Assembly (NCBI RefSeq): GCF_900142725.1
Contig: NZ_FRBW01000001.1
Coordinates: 496,001-560,000, forward strand
DNA length: 64,000 nt
Source of the DNA: Roseibium suaedae
GTDB lineage: Bacteria; Pseudomonadota; Alphaproteobacteria; Rhizobiales; Stappiaceae
Reading direction: 5' to 3'
Made by a program: the position numbers and the translations under genes. Under the pieces are notes generated by a model, which was given only the letters and a program-made list of their open reading frames with translations, had not been told where the DNA came from and searched no databases. Positions 35,544 through 39,692 of the stretch are shown here, piece after piece. The stretch's first letter is position 1; every line of letters starts with the position of its first letter.

Positions 35544-36752
35544 ATGAAGTCCAAGTTCTTCGCGCTGGCGCTGGCAGGTGGCCTGCTCGCTGCAACGGCT
35601 CTGGCCGGCGCTCCGGCCCATGCTGACGTCAAGATCGGCCTGCTTGGCGGTGTCTCCGGCCCGATCGCGGCCATGGCCCCGGCCATGATCGACGCAGCTC
35701 AGCTTGCCTTCCAGCAAGTCAACGAGCAGGGCGGTGTTCTGGATGGCCAGAAGATCGTCGGTGCAGTCGGCGACAGCGCCTGCAGCCCGCAGGGTGGCAC
35801 GGATGCGGCCACCAAGGCTGTGAACATCGAAGGCGTCACCGCCATCGTTGGCCCGCATTGCTCGGGCGCTGTTCTGGCTGCTGCTGGTTCCGTGACCATT
35901 CCGGCAGGCGTTACCGTCGTGACCCCGTCCGGCACTTCGCCGGAAATCACCGGTCTTGCTGACAATGACACCGTGTTCCGCACCGTTCCGTCTGACGACT
36001 TCCAGGGCCGCGCTCTTGCCCGTACCCTGAAGGCAGAAGGCTATTCGAAGGTTGCCGTCGCCTATATCAACAACGACTACGGCACCGGTCTTGCCAATGC
36101 TTTCAAGTCCGAGTTTGAAGCACAGGGCGGCGAAATCGCAGGCTTTGCAGCCCATGAAGACGGCAAGGCCTCTTACCGTTCGAACCTGGCCGACCTGGCT
36201 TCTGGTGGCGCAGACACGCTGGTGATCTTCGACTACGGCGATGGCACCGGTCTCACCCTGCTGCGTCAGGCTCTGGAAAACGGCTTCTTCGAAAAGTTCA
36301 TCGGCGGCGATGGCATGAAGTCCGACGCTCCGATTAAGGAACTCGGCGCTGAAAACCTCACCACCTTCTACGCCTCCTCTCCGGTTGGCGAGAAGTCCGA
36401 TGCCCTGAACGTCTTCAACGAAGCCTTCAAGGCCGCTGGCGGCGATCCGGATGCGATCTTCGTCACCACCTCCTATGACGCTGCCTTCCTGCTGGCTCTG
36501 GCCGTGGAAAAGGCTGGCGGCGACAAGGCGGGCATTCCGGCAGCTCTGCGGGCCGTGTCCAGCGGTGAAGGCGAAGCCATCCTGCCGGGCGAGTGGAAGA
36601 AGGCCAAGGAGCTGATCGCAGCTGGCAAAGCCATCGACTACAAGGGCGCTGCTGGCGACCTGAACTTCGATCAGGCCGGTGACGTTCCGGGCGCCTATTC
36701 CCTGTTCAAGGTTGGCGCAAACGGCTTTGAAGTCGTGTCCGAGATGAAGTGA
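35544..36752 (+). CDS. branched-chain-type amino acid ABC transporter substrate-binding protein (LivK-like)
   Basis: 402 residues with a Sec signal peptide (hydrophobic core FALALAGGLLAATALAG, cleavage near APAHA-D). The mature part is a type I periplasmic-binding fold: 'KIGLLGGVSGPIAAMAPAMIDAAQLAFQQVNEQGG', 'GDSACSPQGGTDAATKAVN' and 'VTPSGTSPEITGL', which holds the amino-acid alpha-group contacts. The ATG at 35544 is used because TGGAGG lies just upstream; the frame's earlier ATGs lack a site. It ends the operon ahead of a strong terminator. The ligand could be tryptophan, kynurenine or branched-chain amino acids. Confidence 0.92.
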   Translation: MKSKFFALALAGGLLAATALAGAPAHADVKIGLLGGVSGPIAAMAPAMIDAAQLAFQQVNEQGGVLDGQKIVGAVGDSACSPQGGTDAATKAVNIEGVTAIVGPHCSGAVLAAAGSVTIPAGVTVVTPSGTSPEITGLADNDTVFRTVPSDDFQGRALARTLKAEGYSKVAVAYINNDYGTGLANAFKSEFEAQGGEIAGFAAHEDGKASYRSNLADLASGGADTLVIFDYGDGTGLTLLRQALENGFFEKFIGGDGMKSDAPIKELGAENLTTFYASSPVGEKSDALNVFNEAFKAAGGDPDAIFVTTSYDAAFLLALAVEKAGGDKAGIPAALRAVSSGEGEAILPGEWKKAKELIAAGKAIDYKGAAGDLNFDQAGDVPGAYSLFKVGANGFEVVSEMK

Positions 36753-36780
36753 TCAGGATCATCCTTGTCCTGAAACGCGA

Positions 36781-36809
36781 AACCGGCGGCCATTGGCCGC
36801 CGGTTTTTT
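36781..36809 (+). terminator. Rho-independent terminator of the kyn-liv operon
   Basis: A perfect 11-bp stem, AACCGGCGGCC (36781-36791) with GGCCGCCGGTT (36795-36805), loop ATT, ending in six Ts (36804-36809). It lies about 30 bp after the binding-protein stop codon. Confidence 0.92.
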
Positions 36810-36846
36810 GTTGAGAGGAAGCGTATTTAAAGATCGGCTCCGCGCT

Positions 36847-36914
36847 GTCCCGGCCTTGAGCCGGGACCTGATTTGGAAGCAGCACCGTTTGCCGGGAATT
36901 AAATGAGATCCCGG
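36847..36914. repeat. palindromic intergenic repeat (two inverted repeats)
   Basis: GTCCCGGC (36847-36854) and GCCGGGAC (36860-36867) form an 8-bp stem with loop CTTGA. CCGGGA (36892-36897) and TCCCGG (36909-36914) form a second. The composition resembles short palindromic elements scattered between genes in many alphaproteobacteria, but only this copy is visible in the window. It directly follows the hemP stop on the - strand and could help end that transcript. Confidence 0.5.
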
Positions 36915-36922
36915 ATCTTCGC

Positions 36923-37123
36923 TCACTTGGTCAGGATCAGCTTGCCCAGCTTGGTGATCGTCAATCGGTAAGTCTCGGCATTGTGCTGGATCTTTAGCTC
37001 GCGCGTGCCCTTGAACAGCGATTTGGTATCGAGAACCAGGTCTTTCGGGCCATCTTGCTGGGACGAACGGGGCCGGTTCAGGGACAGGGTAAGCTTGTCA
37101 CGCCGTACGTTGGACATCTGCAT
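36923..37123 (-). CDS. hemP: hemin uptake protein HemP
   Basis: 66 residues with the conserved HemP ending: 'LFKGTRELKIQHNAETYRLTITKLGKLILTK'. HemP/HmuP proteins are small basic proteins linked to haem-iron uptake; in Bradyrhizobium HmuP is a co-activator of haem transport genes together with Irr. Here it is alone, without hmuRSTUV nearby. Its upstream DNA contains an Irr-like box and two RirA-like boxes, consistent with iron-responsive expression. Confidence 0.92.
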   Translation of the reverse strand: MQMSNVRRDKLTLSLNRPRSSQQDGPKDLVLDTKSLFKGTRELKIQHNAETYRLTITKLGKLILTK

Positions 37124-37145
37124 TTTTCGAGCCTTCAGTCGCTAG

Positions 37146-37162
37146 TTTTGAACGATTCAAAA
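37146..37162. promoter_or_regulatory. Irr/ICE-like palindrome upstream of hemP
   Basis: TTTTGAA-CGA-TTCAAAA is a perfect 17-bp palindrome (7-bp arms, 3-bp centre) lying 23 bp before the hemP start. It matches the architecture of the alphaproteobacterial iron control element (TTTAGAA-N3-TTCTAAA) bound by the haem-responsive regulator Irr at 12 of 14 arm positions. Confidence 0.65.
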
Positions 37163-37164
37163 TA

Positions 37165-37179
37165 TGAGTAAGAAACTCA
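37165..37179. promoter_or_regulatory. RirA (IRO) box 1
   Basis: TGAGT-AAGAA-ACTCA has perfect 5-bp arms and satisfies the IRO consensus TGA-N9-TCA described for rhizobial RirA targets. The rirA gene itself is about 330 bp away. It lies next to the Irr-like box, so the two regulators could act on the same promoters. Confidence 0.65.
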
Positions 37180-37189
37180 ACATTTATTG

Positions 37190-37219
37190 TTGACACTGAT
37201 ACTCAAGTTTAAGTATGAA
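37190..37219 (+). promoter_or_regulatory. sigma-70 promoter overlapping RirA (IRO) box 2
   Basis: A consensus -35 TTGACA (37190-37195) is followed after 18 bp by TATGAA (37214-37219), a 4/6 match to the -10. The second TGA-N9-TCA box occupies 37191-37205 and so covers the -35, which would let an iron-loaded Rrf2 protein block transcription. Transcription would start near 37226 and run into the small RNA region. Confidence 0.55.
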
Positions 37220-37225
37220 GGCAAT

Positions 37226-37431
37226 GCCTGATCTGCAGCGGTTCGGAAATCGCGTCCTTCGGATCCCTGCAGCGGGCTAGCCCAGTGCTAGAATGTCCGG
37301 CAAGCCAACCGCCCTCTCCTCTCCCTCAGCGGTCAGCCAGCCAGGTCATTTCACAGGGCACGCGACGTGGTCGCGTCAAACACCACGACAGTAACAAAAA
37401 GCCCCGGTGCCATAGGCGCCGGGGCTTTTTT
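37226..37431 (+). ncRNA. candidate iron-responsive small RNA
   Basis: About 205 nt lie between the promoter above and a strong terminator, with no coding signal. Features are a hairpin ACGCGAC-GTG-GTCGCGT (37360-37376), a 16-base stretch of only C and T (37312-37327) that could pair with Shine-Dalgarno sequences, and the terminator stem (37401-37425). rirA has its own separate hairpin on the other strand, so this terminator needs a + strand transcript to explain it. The 5' end is estimated from the promoter. It might instead be a short leader or decayed gene. Confidence 0.5.
37401..37431 (+). terminator. Rho-independent terminator of the candidate small RNA
   Basis: GCCCCGGTGCC (37401-37411) pairs with GGCGCCGGGGC (37415-37425), one G-T pair, loop ATA, then six Ts (37426-37431). 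Five As precede the stem, so it may also work in the - direction as a second stop for rirA. Confidence 0.85.
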
Positions 37432-37463
37432 GATGATCAGATCACGGAAATCAAAACGCACGA

Positions 37464-37496
37464 AACCACCGGCTGGCCTGACCCGGGCCGGTGGTT
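37464..37496 (-). terminator. probable rirA terminator hairpin
   Basis: AACCACCGGC (37464-37473) and GCCGGTGGTT (37487-37496) form a perfect 10-bp stem just after the rirA stop codon. On the - strand the stem runs into TTTCGTGCGTTTTGATTT, a T-rich though interrupted tail. Confidence 0.6.
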
Positions 37497-37509
37497 CCGT
37501 GCAAATACG

Positions 37510-37971
37510 TCAGCTGGCGGCTGCGACCGGGAACTTCTCTTCGATCTTCAGAAGATGACGAAGGGACGGGCGGTCCTCGGAGAGGTCGCCAATGGTCTTG
37601 GTGTCCAGCACGTCCATGAAGGCTTCCAGCGCTTCATGAAGAATGCCGTTGAAGCCGCAGGACATGATCAGCGGGCAGTCTGTGCGGCCCGAGTCGAAAC
37701 ACTCTGCCAGAAGGAAGCTTTCTTCCGCAGCGCGGACGACTTCACCCACGGTGATCGTCTCTGCGGGGCGGGCAAGCATCACACCGCCGTTCCGGCCACG
37801 AATGGTCTTGATCAGATTTGCATCGACCAGAACCTTCATGATCTTGAACAGGTGGGTTTCAGACATGTCGAAGCTGGCTGCGATATCCGCAACTTTGCTA
37901 GGACGCTCCGGGTTCGCGGCGCAGTACATCAGCGCACGAACCGCGTAATTGGTTTGTTGAGTCAGGCGCAT
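37510..37971 (-). CDS. rirA: Rrf2-family iron regulator RirA
   Basis: 153 residues from the ATG that gives 'MRLTQQTNYAVRALMYCAAN'. The Rrf2 winged helix includes 'MSETHLFKIMKVLVDANLIKTIRGRNGGVMLARPA', and the Fe-S cluster cysteines lie in 'AECFDSGRTDCPLIMSC' (spacing C-x7-C-x5-C), as in rhizobial RirA. RirA senses Fe-S status and represses iron uptake when iron is replete. NsrR is the nearest alternative, but the start motif, the 'SFLLAECF' context and the neighbouring hemP/IRO boxes favour RirA. Confidence 0.88.
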   Translation of the reverse strand: MRLTQQTNYAVRALMYCAANPERPSKVADIAASFDMSETHLFKIMKVLVDANLIKTIRGRNGGVMLARPAETITVGEVVRAAEESFLLAECFDSGRTDCPLIMSCGFNGILHEALEAFMDVLDTKTIGDLSEDRPSLRHLLKIEEKFPVAAAS

Positions 37972-38081
37972 GGTTCTAGATATGCGGTCTCTGGTCCCCC
38001 GCGTCAACGGGAATATGTGAGTTTTATAATCTGGTTTTCACGGGGGACGAAGCGTCAAACGGCAATTAGGTCATGATTCCG

Positions 38082-39692
38082 CTAGGGTAGATCCTGATAG
38101 GCGAAGTAATCAAAGTCCGCCGGCCAGGCCTGTCCTGTCAGGTCCATGGCATGCATGCCGACAAAGGCACCGGTAAAATTGCCATGTTCGCCGCGTCCCG
38201 CCTCATCCGACAGGATCGTGGCATCAAAGACGGGACCAATGCGATTCCAGTCATGTCCCTCGACTGCATACCAGAACCGCAGGGCTTGCCCCTGGGTTTC
38301 AACCTTCATCCGCACAGGGCCGCTGGAGCTCAGAGGCAGGGGGGCGTCCAGCGGGAAGGTGAGATCGCCGGAGGGGAAGCGGCCGTGGCAGGCCATCATG
38401 GTCAGGCACTTGCCGATCTTCTCGTCCCAGGTCACCGCCAGATAGAAGAACTGGAACCGGCCATAATAGGCGATCAGCCCGGCTGTGTGCTGGAAGGTCT
38501 CGGGATCGCAATCGACGCTGGTCTCAGCCCGGTAGTGGTAGTTGGTTTGACGGCGGGCGACGAGTGCCTGCTCGAAATAGCTGCCGAGGGATTCGCGACC
38601 GTACAGCCGCAGATGCCCCTTGCGGGCGGTGGTGGAAAAGAGCCGGTCCGGCTCGGGAGAGCGCAGCCACTGGAAGGCCGGGGGTAAGGCGTCGCCGTCA
38701 AACTCCTGCCGCACAGGCTCCGCCGGAAAGGGGTGCGGCGGTAGTGCCGGACCCATGACGGTCCCTTGCGGCTCAAGTGGCTTTCCTTCAAGCCGCAGCC
38801 AGCCATCTTCGCCCCACACGCATTTCTGGATCGCAGTTTCCCGGCCCATCTGGCAGCGGTTCAGACCGGGGACCGGCCTGCCCATGAGATGGACCAGATA
38901 GGTTTCGCCGGTCTGGGTCTCGACGATGTCGCCGTGGCCCGCCCGCTGGATCGGATTGTCTGGGAAGGTCAGCGACGAGACCACATGCTTGTCCGGATGC
39001 AGTTCATAGGGACCTGTCAGCCGTTTGGAGCGGGCCAGGGTGACCGCATGCCGGTAGCCTGTGCCGCCTTCTGCTGTCAGCAGGTAGTAGTAGCCGTTGC
39101 GCTTGTAGAGATGTGGCCCTTCCACCAGGCCCCGTTCCGTGCCCTTGAAGATGTTCCGCACCGGGCCGGTGAGACGCTTTTGAACCGGGTCATATTCCTG
39201 CAGCAGGATACCGGCGAAGGCCGTCGGGGTCTTGCGCTGGTCCCAGACCATGTTGACGAACCACTTGCGGCCGTCGTCGTCATGAAAAAGTGAAGGGTCG
39301 AAGCCGGAGGAATTCACCCGCACCGGATCGGACCAGGGGCCTTCAATGCTCGGCGCGGTCACGATGTAATTATGCGTGTCCTTGAAGTTGCCCTCGTTGC
39401 GCTTCACGTCCGTGTAGACCAGCCAGAACAGGCCGTCAGAATGGGTAAGGCAGGGGGCCCAGATGCCGCAATTGTCCGGATTGCCGCGCATGTCGAGCTG
39501 GCTTGCCCGATTGAGGGGGCGTGCCGCCAGCTGCCAGTTGGCAAGGTCTTTCGAATGGTGGATCTGAACGCCGGGGAACCACTCGAAGGTGGAGGTCGCG
39601 ATGTAATAGTCGTCGCCGACCCGGCAGATAGATGGGTCCGGATTGAAGCCGGGCAGAATCGGATTCTGAATCGCTTGAGGTGCGTTACTCAT
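38082..39692 (-). CDS. glycoside hydrolase family 43 (beta-xylosidase/arabinofuranosidase)
   Basis: 536 residues: an N-terminal five-bladed beta-propeller and a C-terminal beta-sandwich (from ~residue 330, 'EPVRQEFDGDALPPAFQWLRSPEPD'), the layout of GH43 XynB-type beta-xylosidases. The catalytic base Asp19 is in NPDPSIC; the pKa-modulating Asp is in 'SGFDPSLFHDD'; the general acid Glu is in 'RGLVEGPHLYKRNGYYYL'. No signal peptide, so it acts on imported xylo-oligosaccharides. The LacI gene upstream on the same strand is the likely regulator. Confidence 0.92.
   Translation of the reverse strand: MSNAPQAIQNPILPGFNPDPSICRVGDDYYIATSTFEWFPGVQIHHSKDLANWQLAARPLNRASQLDMRGNPDNCGIWAPCLTHSDGLFWLVYTDVKRNEGNFKDTHNYIVTAPSIEGPWSDPVRVNSSGFDPSLFHDDDGRKWFVNMVWDQRKTPTAFAGILLQEYDPVQKRLTGPVRNIFKGTERGLVEGPHLYKRNGYYYLLTAEGGTGYRHAVTLARSKRLTGPYELHPDKHVVSSLTFPDNPIQRAGHGDIVETQTGETYLVHLMGRPVPGLNRCQMGRETAIQKCVWGEDGWLRLEGKPLEPQGTVMGPALPPHPFPAEPVRQEFDGDALPPAFQWLRSPEPDRLFSTTARKGHLRLYGRESLGSYFEQALVARRQTNYHYRAETSVDCDPETFQHTAGLIAYYGRFQFFYLAVTWDEKIGKCLTMMACHGRFPSGDLTFPLDAPLPLSSSGPVRMKVETQGQALRFWYAVEGHDWNRIGPVFDATILSDEAGRGEHGNFTGAFVGMHAMDLTGQAWPADFDYFAYQDLP

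Follow-up and report, generated by a model that had tools for sequence, protein, structure and literature searches.

Two described systems, the enterobacterial small RNA RyhB and the heme-receptor leaders that carry the HmuP-responsive element (HPRE), reportedly defined by Amarelle in 2019, come close to the candidate RNA that we describe here between hemP and rirA of Roseibium suaedae. In Escherichia coli, RyhB represses nuoA by pairing with its ribosome-binding site, as compensatory mutations demonstrated in the accessible part of that account (PMC6497325). The hemP-rirA RNA shares with RyhB an iron-repressor operator over its promoter, here predicted from RirA-type rather than Fur boxes, and complementarity to the ribosome-binding site of an iron-enzyme message, again nuoA; it differs in having no Rfam match, an HPRE hairpin and two loops that are predicted to pair. 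Our best reading of these features is that the RNA would be unrelated to RyhB by descent and RyhB-like in role.

HPREs are repeats of AGCCAGC through which HmuP of Ensifer meliloti probably activates heme-receptor expression post-transcriptionally, and ChuP of Chromobacterium violaceum has been proposed to act as HmuP does, according to the available sections of two reports (PMC9131926, PMC11442138); accounts of HemP/HmuP differ between transcriptional and post-transcriptional action, as the second of these sets out in its accessible text (PMC11442138). With the HmuP-dependent leaders of shmR, chuR and vbuA, as described in the available part of PMC9131926, the hemP-rirA RNA has in common the AGCCAGC direct repeat, adjacency to hemP and a promoter with an iron box, and it differs from them in having a terminator in place of the receptor gene, a CU loop and a second loop, loop A. 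RusT of Caulobacter crescentus is, like the RNA proposed here, an alphaproteobacterial small RNA induced by iron starvation, an induction that for the hemP-rirA RNA is predicted from its boxes; in the accessible text (PMC11005374) RusT lies at lolA-xth, is controlled by NtrYX and has mostly membrane proteins and transporters as targets, whereas the present RNA sits at hemP-rirA. Among the matches listed in the literature that we searched, mostly non-subscription, neither an RNA between hemP and rirA nor a stand-alone HPRE RNA was found, and RusT, through partly accessible text, was the one iron-responsive alphaproteobacterial small RNA met within that scope. We consider it fairly probable that the locus encodes a stand-alone iron-starvation RNA, RyhB-like and controlled by RirA, that targets nuoA, is tuned by HemP and arose from an orphaned leader.

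Putative iron operators and promoter at the hemP-rirA locus

The window, the 64,000-nucleotide stretch of R. suaedae DNA that was analysed, carries hemP on the minus strand at 36923-37123 (HemP/HmuP family, PF10636, E 1.5e-13) and rirA, also on the minus strand, at 37510-37971 (NCBIfam equivalog NF008886, 194.5 bits against a cut-off of 193); these profile matches agree with the identities that an initial annotation had given both genes. The small RNA gene is placed between them on the plus strand at 37226-37431, with predicted ends, divergent from hemP and convergent with rirA, whose 3' end has a stem-loop on the minus strand at 37461-37504, a feature also annotated before and present in the sequence. 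A DNA search of 87 genomes of the family (NCBI places Roseibium in the Stappiaceae, Hyphomicrobiales) matched 63 of them at E<=0.01, some through short terminator-like pieces alone, and we analysed 51 loci: 45 from genus g1 (mostly Roseibium/Labrenzia), five from g4 (Pannonibacter type) and one from g5, while g6 denotes Pseudovibrio. The hemP-rirA locus carries the element in all 45 Roseibium genomes, in the five Pannonibacter-type genomes and in the g5 genome. hemP was present in 50 of the 51 loci, as was rirA (L028 stops at a contig end, and L016 is without rirA inside 3.2 kb, yet its 8-kb record has the gene), and the orientation of hemP, RNA and rirA is that of the window in 49/49 loci with both genes. 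Conservation of the element is far beyond chance: in the alignment of the 51 loci the conserved block begins at the -35 and extends to about 37346, with similarity declining in the direction of rirA.

The initial annotation had read between the two genes an Irr-like box, two RirA-like boxes, a promoter, a C/T-only stretch, a terminator and the rirA stem-loop, and all of these are present in the sequence at the positions given here. The Irr/ICE-like box, TTTTGAACGATTCAAAA, is a perfect 7+3+7 palindrome at 37146-37162 that agrees at 12 of 14 positions with what we take to be the ICE consensus. It looks convincing in the window, but Irr control as annotated does not look general, the box rising above shuffled sequences (p<=0.05) in only 23 of the 51 loci.

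Of the two IRO/RirA-type boxes, box 1, TGAGTAAGAAACTCA (TGAGT-N5-ACTCA), lies at 37165-37179, and box 2, TGACACTGATACTCA (TGA-N9-TCA), at 37191-37205, where it covers the -35 of a plus-strand promoter at 37190-37219 (-35 TTGACA at 37190-37195, -10 TATGAA at 37214-37219, 18-nt spacer) with a predicted start site. This pair of TGA-N9-TCA boxes is kept in 36/51 loci, the TTGAC of the -35 in 51/51, the perfect TGAGT-N5-ACTCA in 26/51, and a TTGCG-type palindrome was found in 4/51. In the g4 and g5 loci a palindrome with other arms replaces box 1, of the form TTGCG(A/G)-N5-(T/C)CGCAA in four of six. Palindromes of the TTGCGA/TCGCAA type stand in place of TGAGT-N5-ACTCA at L046, L048-L050, L052 and L053 (g4, g5), arms of this type also occur beside hemP in other families (L179, L204, L208, L218, L254), and perhaps they are another kind of iron operator or reflect a change in RirA specificity.

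In the whole 5.1-Mb genome TGAGT-N5-ACTCA occurs at five sites, box 1 among them, and the backwards pattern gave one match per strand. Four of the five are at evident iron-acquisition genes (hemP with the RNA, two TonB receptors at one site each, one of them a heme receptor, and an NRPS condensation protein with a chorismate-binding enzyme opposite), and the fifth lies beside an ECF sigma gene, with a FecR-like gene adjacent, as judged by eye, and a 449-aa protein without a Pfam family on the other side. The RirA box of R. leguminosarum fhuA is TGACTAAAATAATCAT in the accessible part of PMC10510648, with which box 2 may be compared as TGACACTGATACTCAA. Control of the RNA promoter by RirA, as the initial annotation had proposed, is supported by the IRO boxes at the promoter, their retention in relatives and genome sites that are mostly at iron-acquisition genes, and it is from these that RirA binding and expression of the RNA are predicted. 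A generic scan of 36700-38100 listed no promoters and no terminators; the promoter is unlisted because its -10 breaks the rule of that scan that the second hexamer has T at position 6.

Structure and extent of the predicted RNA

The region 37226-37431 has a predicted fold of -96.4 kcal/mol (z = -6.9, 200 shuffles). Hairpin 1 (37226-37277, plus strand) is predicted to present loop A, with the loop AAUCGCGUCC at 37248-37257. The core of hairpin 2 (37309-37332, plus strand) consists of CCGC, a 16-nt CU loop (loop B) and GCGG; it holds the invariant TCTCCTCTCCCTC at 37315-37327, and the C/T-only stretch is confirmed at 37312-37327. Three elements do not vary across the 48 distinct sequences: TCGCGTCCT, AGCCA (twice) and TCTCCTCTCCCTC. 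The consensus fold comprises three helices with 21 pairs, of which 12 have compensatory changes (helix 1 alone has both-sided changes in six of nine pairs), with 96.0% of cells paired; 500 shuffles included none that equalled it by any of five measures. In slid controls of the consensus fold, 24-46% of cells were paired, a comparison that leans toward structure because the structure was derived from the same alignment. The consensus pairs include 129 G-U cells against four A-C cells, and the plus strand is therefore the RNA. Stems and boxes alike are largely kept in relatives that retain hemP and rirA, and the stems covary.

This pattern bears on the idea that the conserved block encodes a short peptide, or a dual-function RNA, for which a 21-codon frame beginning at 37216 is available. 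The ATG of that frame overlaps the -10, and variation in the block tracks base pairing, with length changes between the loops, so that we find a peptide scarcely credible.

In two Roseibium species (L012, L013) the stretch from hairpin 2 to the terminator contains another hairpin loop that again carries AATCGCGTCC and looks like a duplicate of the pairing loop. No Rfam family reached its gathering score in the window; the two best of 17 weaker matches, Spot_42 and sraL, coincide with or lie close to terminator hairpins and were dismissed as chance, and RyhB was absent among the 17, leaving the RNA without a place in the RyhB sequence family.

An intrinsic terminator of the RNA at 37400-37432 (plus strand; stem 37400-37426 plus a T-run) was found by a dedicated scoring scan, not by the generic one. 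The strong terminator of the initial annotation thus holds for the window but is strong in only 16 of the 51 loci, the window included, as compared with 1/51 when shuffled. By a crude rule, 23/49 loci have, no more than 140 nt from the rirA stop, a hairpin with AAAA before it that could terminate the RNA and rirA transcripts alike. RNA length probably varies, because strong terminators occur in 16/51 loci and this shared-type hairpin near rirA in 23/49. The interval between hairpin 2 and rirA ranges from 63 to 540 nt. Its longest plus-strand frame reaches 50 aa in 9/49 loci, resemblance between such frames is confined to L025, L027, L035 and L042, loci with dispersed repeats in common, and no widely conserved frame was found there in the 49 loci. 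By eye, L027, L035, L042 and L044 were seen to carry dispersed palindromic GGATTGCCGGATCAAGTCCGGCAATGACG-like repeats between the RNA and rirA.

The convergent layout in all 49 loci with both genes and the possible dual-use hairpin near the rirA stop in 23 of them are what would be expected if overlapping 3' ends controlled rirA through antisense or convergent transcription. Conservation is instead found at the far 5' end, away from rirA, and the 3' part is the one that varies, over the 63-540 nt given above, and we regard such control as very improbable.

Complementarity of loop A to nuoA and further candidate targets

Within hairpin 1, the pairing stretch UCGCGUCCUU at 37250-37259 (plus strand) is complementary over 10 nt to the ribosome-binding site of nuoA, AAGGACGCGA. 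The initial annotation had assigned the masking of ribosome-binding sites to the C/T stretch, which is present, but the best-supported pairing loop is that at 37250-37259 instead; loop A and the CU-rich loop B both look like ribosome-site binders. An untargeted scan of six Roseibium genomes for AGGACGCGA-N0-14-ATG returned 89 rows and met nuoA in all six genomes, with an identical 17-mer at the nuoA start in five and one base fewer before the ATG in the sixth. NuoA was then sought in the 87 family genomes and found in 85, and all 85 starts were read. Exact AAGGACGCGA stands at the nuoA start in 41/44 g1, 5/5 g4, 0/1 g5 (where the site is AAGGACGCGT, one change), 2/16 g6, 0/3 g2, 0/3 g3 and 0/13 g7 genomes. 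The G-U-tolerant pattern A[AG]GGACGCG[AG] raises these counts to 44/44 in g1, 5/5 in g4, 0/1 in g5 and 3/16 in g6, with 0/19 in g2, g3 and g7. G016, G019 and G027 are the g6 genomes that match loop A at the nuoA start, and most of g6 does not. The RyhB-like role put forward at the outset therefore gains a candidate target, the ribosome-binding site of nuoA being complementary in 44/44 Roseibium genomes, although the contrast among genera may amount to one or few evolutionary events.

The predicted duplex of loop A with nuoA of its own genome reaches -17.8 kcal/mol, as against a best of -15.1 and a mean of -10.0 for 45 gene starts of the window. For the window's loop A against nuoA, genus means are -17.8 in g1 and g4, -15.9 in g5, -14.7 in g6, -12.7 in g2, -11.1 in g3 and -12.1 in g7. 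Among 48 nuoA starts (g1, g4 and g5, aligned on GGACGC), AGGACGCG is invariant save for one A-to-G change; the next base is conserved at 0.96, positions +10 to +15 at 0.71-0.88 and an upstream TGC at 0.94, and two steps further upstream conservation has dropped to 0.44. With the upstream TGC 94% conserved, part of the nuoA leader may be kept for another reason, and the specific signal comes to about 5 nt (CGCGA) because AAGGA is ordinary ribosome-binding sequence. Pseudovibrio leaders (L064, L065) contain a loop A-like sequence while nuoA there has no good match, and an older function of loop A is therefore possible.

The other loop A matches at gene starts are mixed. Assessment covered the DNA of 70 of the 89 rows, with part of the open frames profile-scanned, and yielded nine different genes whose start is plausible and whose product has Pfam support: iron-linked are nuoA, CcmF, a 4Fe-4S protein and perhaps BolA, and not clearly so YkuD, NMT1_2, BPD_transp_2, a thiazole kinase and an FMN oxidoreductase. 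Eight candidates (L361, L363, L371, L379, L380, L388, L482, L484) were set aside for a Pfam match deep inside the profile or far from the start. Own-genome patterns requiring T after CGCGA were likewise dropped, the gene starts that they found being those of a methyltransferase, a glutaminase and a permease, which are not clearly iron genes.

A target search with the C/T stretch, as the initial annotation had advised, returned a glutaminase and a permease in the own genome and a suggestive result in relatives. The loop B scan of six relatives gave 25 rows (23 sites), 15 of them with a frame of at least 50 aa and 12 with Pfam support. Seven of these 12 were judged iron-linked (a desaturase, two IlvD/Edd, a 2Fe-2S protein, cytochrome c', NapE and HupH), an iron content that we in part presume. 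Compared with one of 26 Pfam-annotated window genes (30 scanned), this gives a Fisher p of 0.0004; p is 0.0017 when a glyoxalase/dioxygenase gene is counted in the control (2/26), 0.008 when NapE and HupH are left out (5/12) and 0.014 with the two own-genome matches added (5/14). The loop B result is suggestive only, because genes were classed post hoc in a small sample with a local control.

The HPRE hairpin, its likely origin and a proposed mode of action

The second hairpin is, by its motifs, a split HPRE: AGCCAAC at 37303-37309, the first copy in the window, and AGCCAGC at 37335-37341, both on the plus strand, form a direct repeat beside hemP of the kind exemplified in the available part of PMC9131926. 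AGCCA of the first half and AGCCAG of the second are invariant in the 48 sequences. No receptor gene lies directly downstream, where rirA is convergent with a terminator between. The initial annotation had not noticed this, and the element reads as a HemP/HmuP-responsive leader without its gene. From the HPRE motif we infer that the RNA is probably bound by HemP, the product of the divergent gene, and adjusted by it in response to heme.

Outside the family such leaders commonly have a gene. A hemP search of the order detected the gene in 159 of 397 genomes, and we read 70 hemP loci (the 30 best-scoring of that search and 40 chosen to spread over families), counting AGCCAGC up to 420 nt from the N-terminal end of the hemP match. 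Outside the family, 51 of 68 loci have the motif on the strand divergent from hemP, and four of 68 have it on the other. By eye, many of these outside loci have TTGAC and promoter-like sequence before AGCCAGC and a long open frame after it. The four divergent frames that were profile-tested, three outside the family and one inside (L209, from G004), are all TonB receptors: a TonB plug domain was identified in L192 and L209, and the best matches of L209, L226 and L238, which are partial proteins, are TonB heme/hemoglobin receptor families, below full-length cut-offs. Inside the family, a homologous leader precedes a heme receptor in G004 (g3) and another gene in genus g7. The leader of Pseudovibrio (L145, L168) precedes a 147-aa gene without a Pfam family and then an ExbB-like gene, called by eye without a Pfam match, in the order hemP, leader, 147-aa gene, exbB and, further on, rirA. 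In Roseibium and Pannonibacter-type genomes nothing but the RNA separates hemP from rirA. The simplest history is that the coding gene was lost, because leader plus gene is the common state outside, and the RNA appears to derive from what was once the 5' leader of a gene of heme-receptor type, a direction of change that we infer.

The same leaders would suit an RNA that still acts in cis, as a leader or attenuator with terminator read-through into a downstream gene, or as the relic of a lost operon, since homologues precede protein genes in Pseudovibrio and g7 and a heme receptor in G004. The next gene is the convergent rirA in Roseibium and Pannonibacter-type loci, however, the few plus-strand frames that reach 50 aa resemble one another only in the four repeat-sharing loci, and a relic would not stay so conserved in 51 loci; we judge cis action or a relic to be quite improbable.

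An HPRE hairpin with a CCCTCCCTC loop was also seen right after the hemP stop codon, not divergent, in a metagenome-assembled genome of Rhizobium sp. Q54 (L142, 3663-3704). The origin in a hemP 3' untranslated region that it suggested was dropped, the layout at the sampled hemP loci being divergent. A pattern scan gave 49 loci, 39 in Stappiaceae and ten not, and of those ten only L142 adjoins hemP. A covariance search of the 397 genomes of the order gave 20 matches, 17 of them inside the family; its misses mean little because only eight candidates per genome were scored, and the three matches outside the family (L067, L070, L072) have no hemP within the locus and were rejected as chance.

CsrB titrates CsrA, and known sponges of this kind usually have several protein sites. 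If the hemP-rirA RNA shared with CsrB/GlmY-type RNAs the titration of a small regulatory protein, its HPRE would draw off HemP, receptor leaders would be activated only by HemP in excess, and the loops would be structural. The invariance of the AGCCA halves and the position of the RNA gene, divergent to hemP, are consistent with titration, as is the genome's own heme receptor, 0.8 Mb away, whose leader combines an IRO palindrome with an HPRE pair. A HemP sponge would, however, have no need of an invariant 13-nt CU loop or of loop A, and the RNA has a single protein-binding element, where several are usual in known sponges, together with loops that are likely to base-pair. AGCCAGC occurs in the 450 nt upstream of only four of the 30 Roseibium receptor genes examined. 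Moreover, 11 of 45 Roseibium genomes (G033, G034, G038, G046, G049, G059, G064, G065, G066, G068, G071) lack a TonB-hemin receptor at E<=1e-60, and all 11 keep the RNA; HemP may therefore serve something besides heme uptake there. Titration as the main function strikes us as unlikely.

We favor, on the sequence features described, a base-pairing RNA under RirA. In iron-replete cells, RirA with its iron-sulfur cluster would sit on both boxes, the second over the -35, and shut off the RNA promoter and hemP together; when iron is poor, the cluster would be lost and both divergent promoters released, so that hemP and the RNA would be made together. Through its two single-stranded loops the RNA would then pair with messages that encode iron-consuming proteins, at their ribosome-binding sites. 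Loop A would pair with nuoA at AAGGACGCGA and block translation of the first subunit of complex I, so that this large iron-sulfur enzyme would not be made and iron would be spared, and the RNA probably also blocks other iron-enzyme messages. HemP on the HPRE hairpin, with its CU loop, may set the activity of the RNA according to heme. More tentatively, and as a possibility to which we give less than even weight, a cis leader that lost its gene may have become a heme-gated counterpart of RyhB acting in trans, with HemP as its dedicated partner, able to open or mask the loops that pair.

If the proposal is right, a RyhB-like RNA under a different regulator would have arrived independently at nuoA, and a leader RNA would have become a small RNA in its own right, through stages that sister genera still display. 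If the heme-gated reading also holds, heme supply would be coupled to the shut-down of complex I and other iron enzymes. The locus would also offer a test system for HemP/HmuP as RNA-binding heme sensors.
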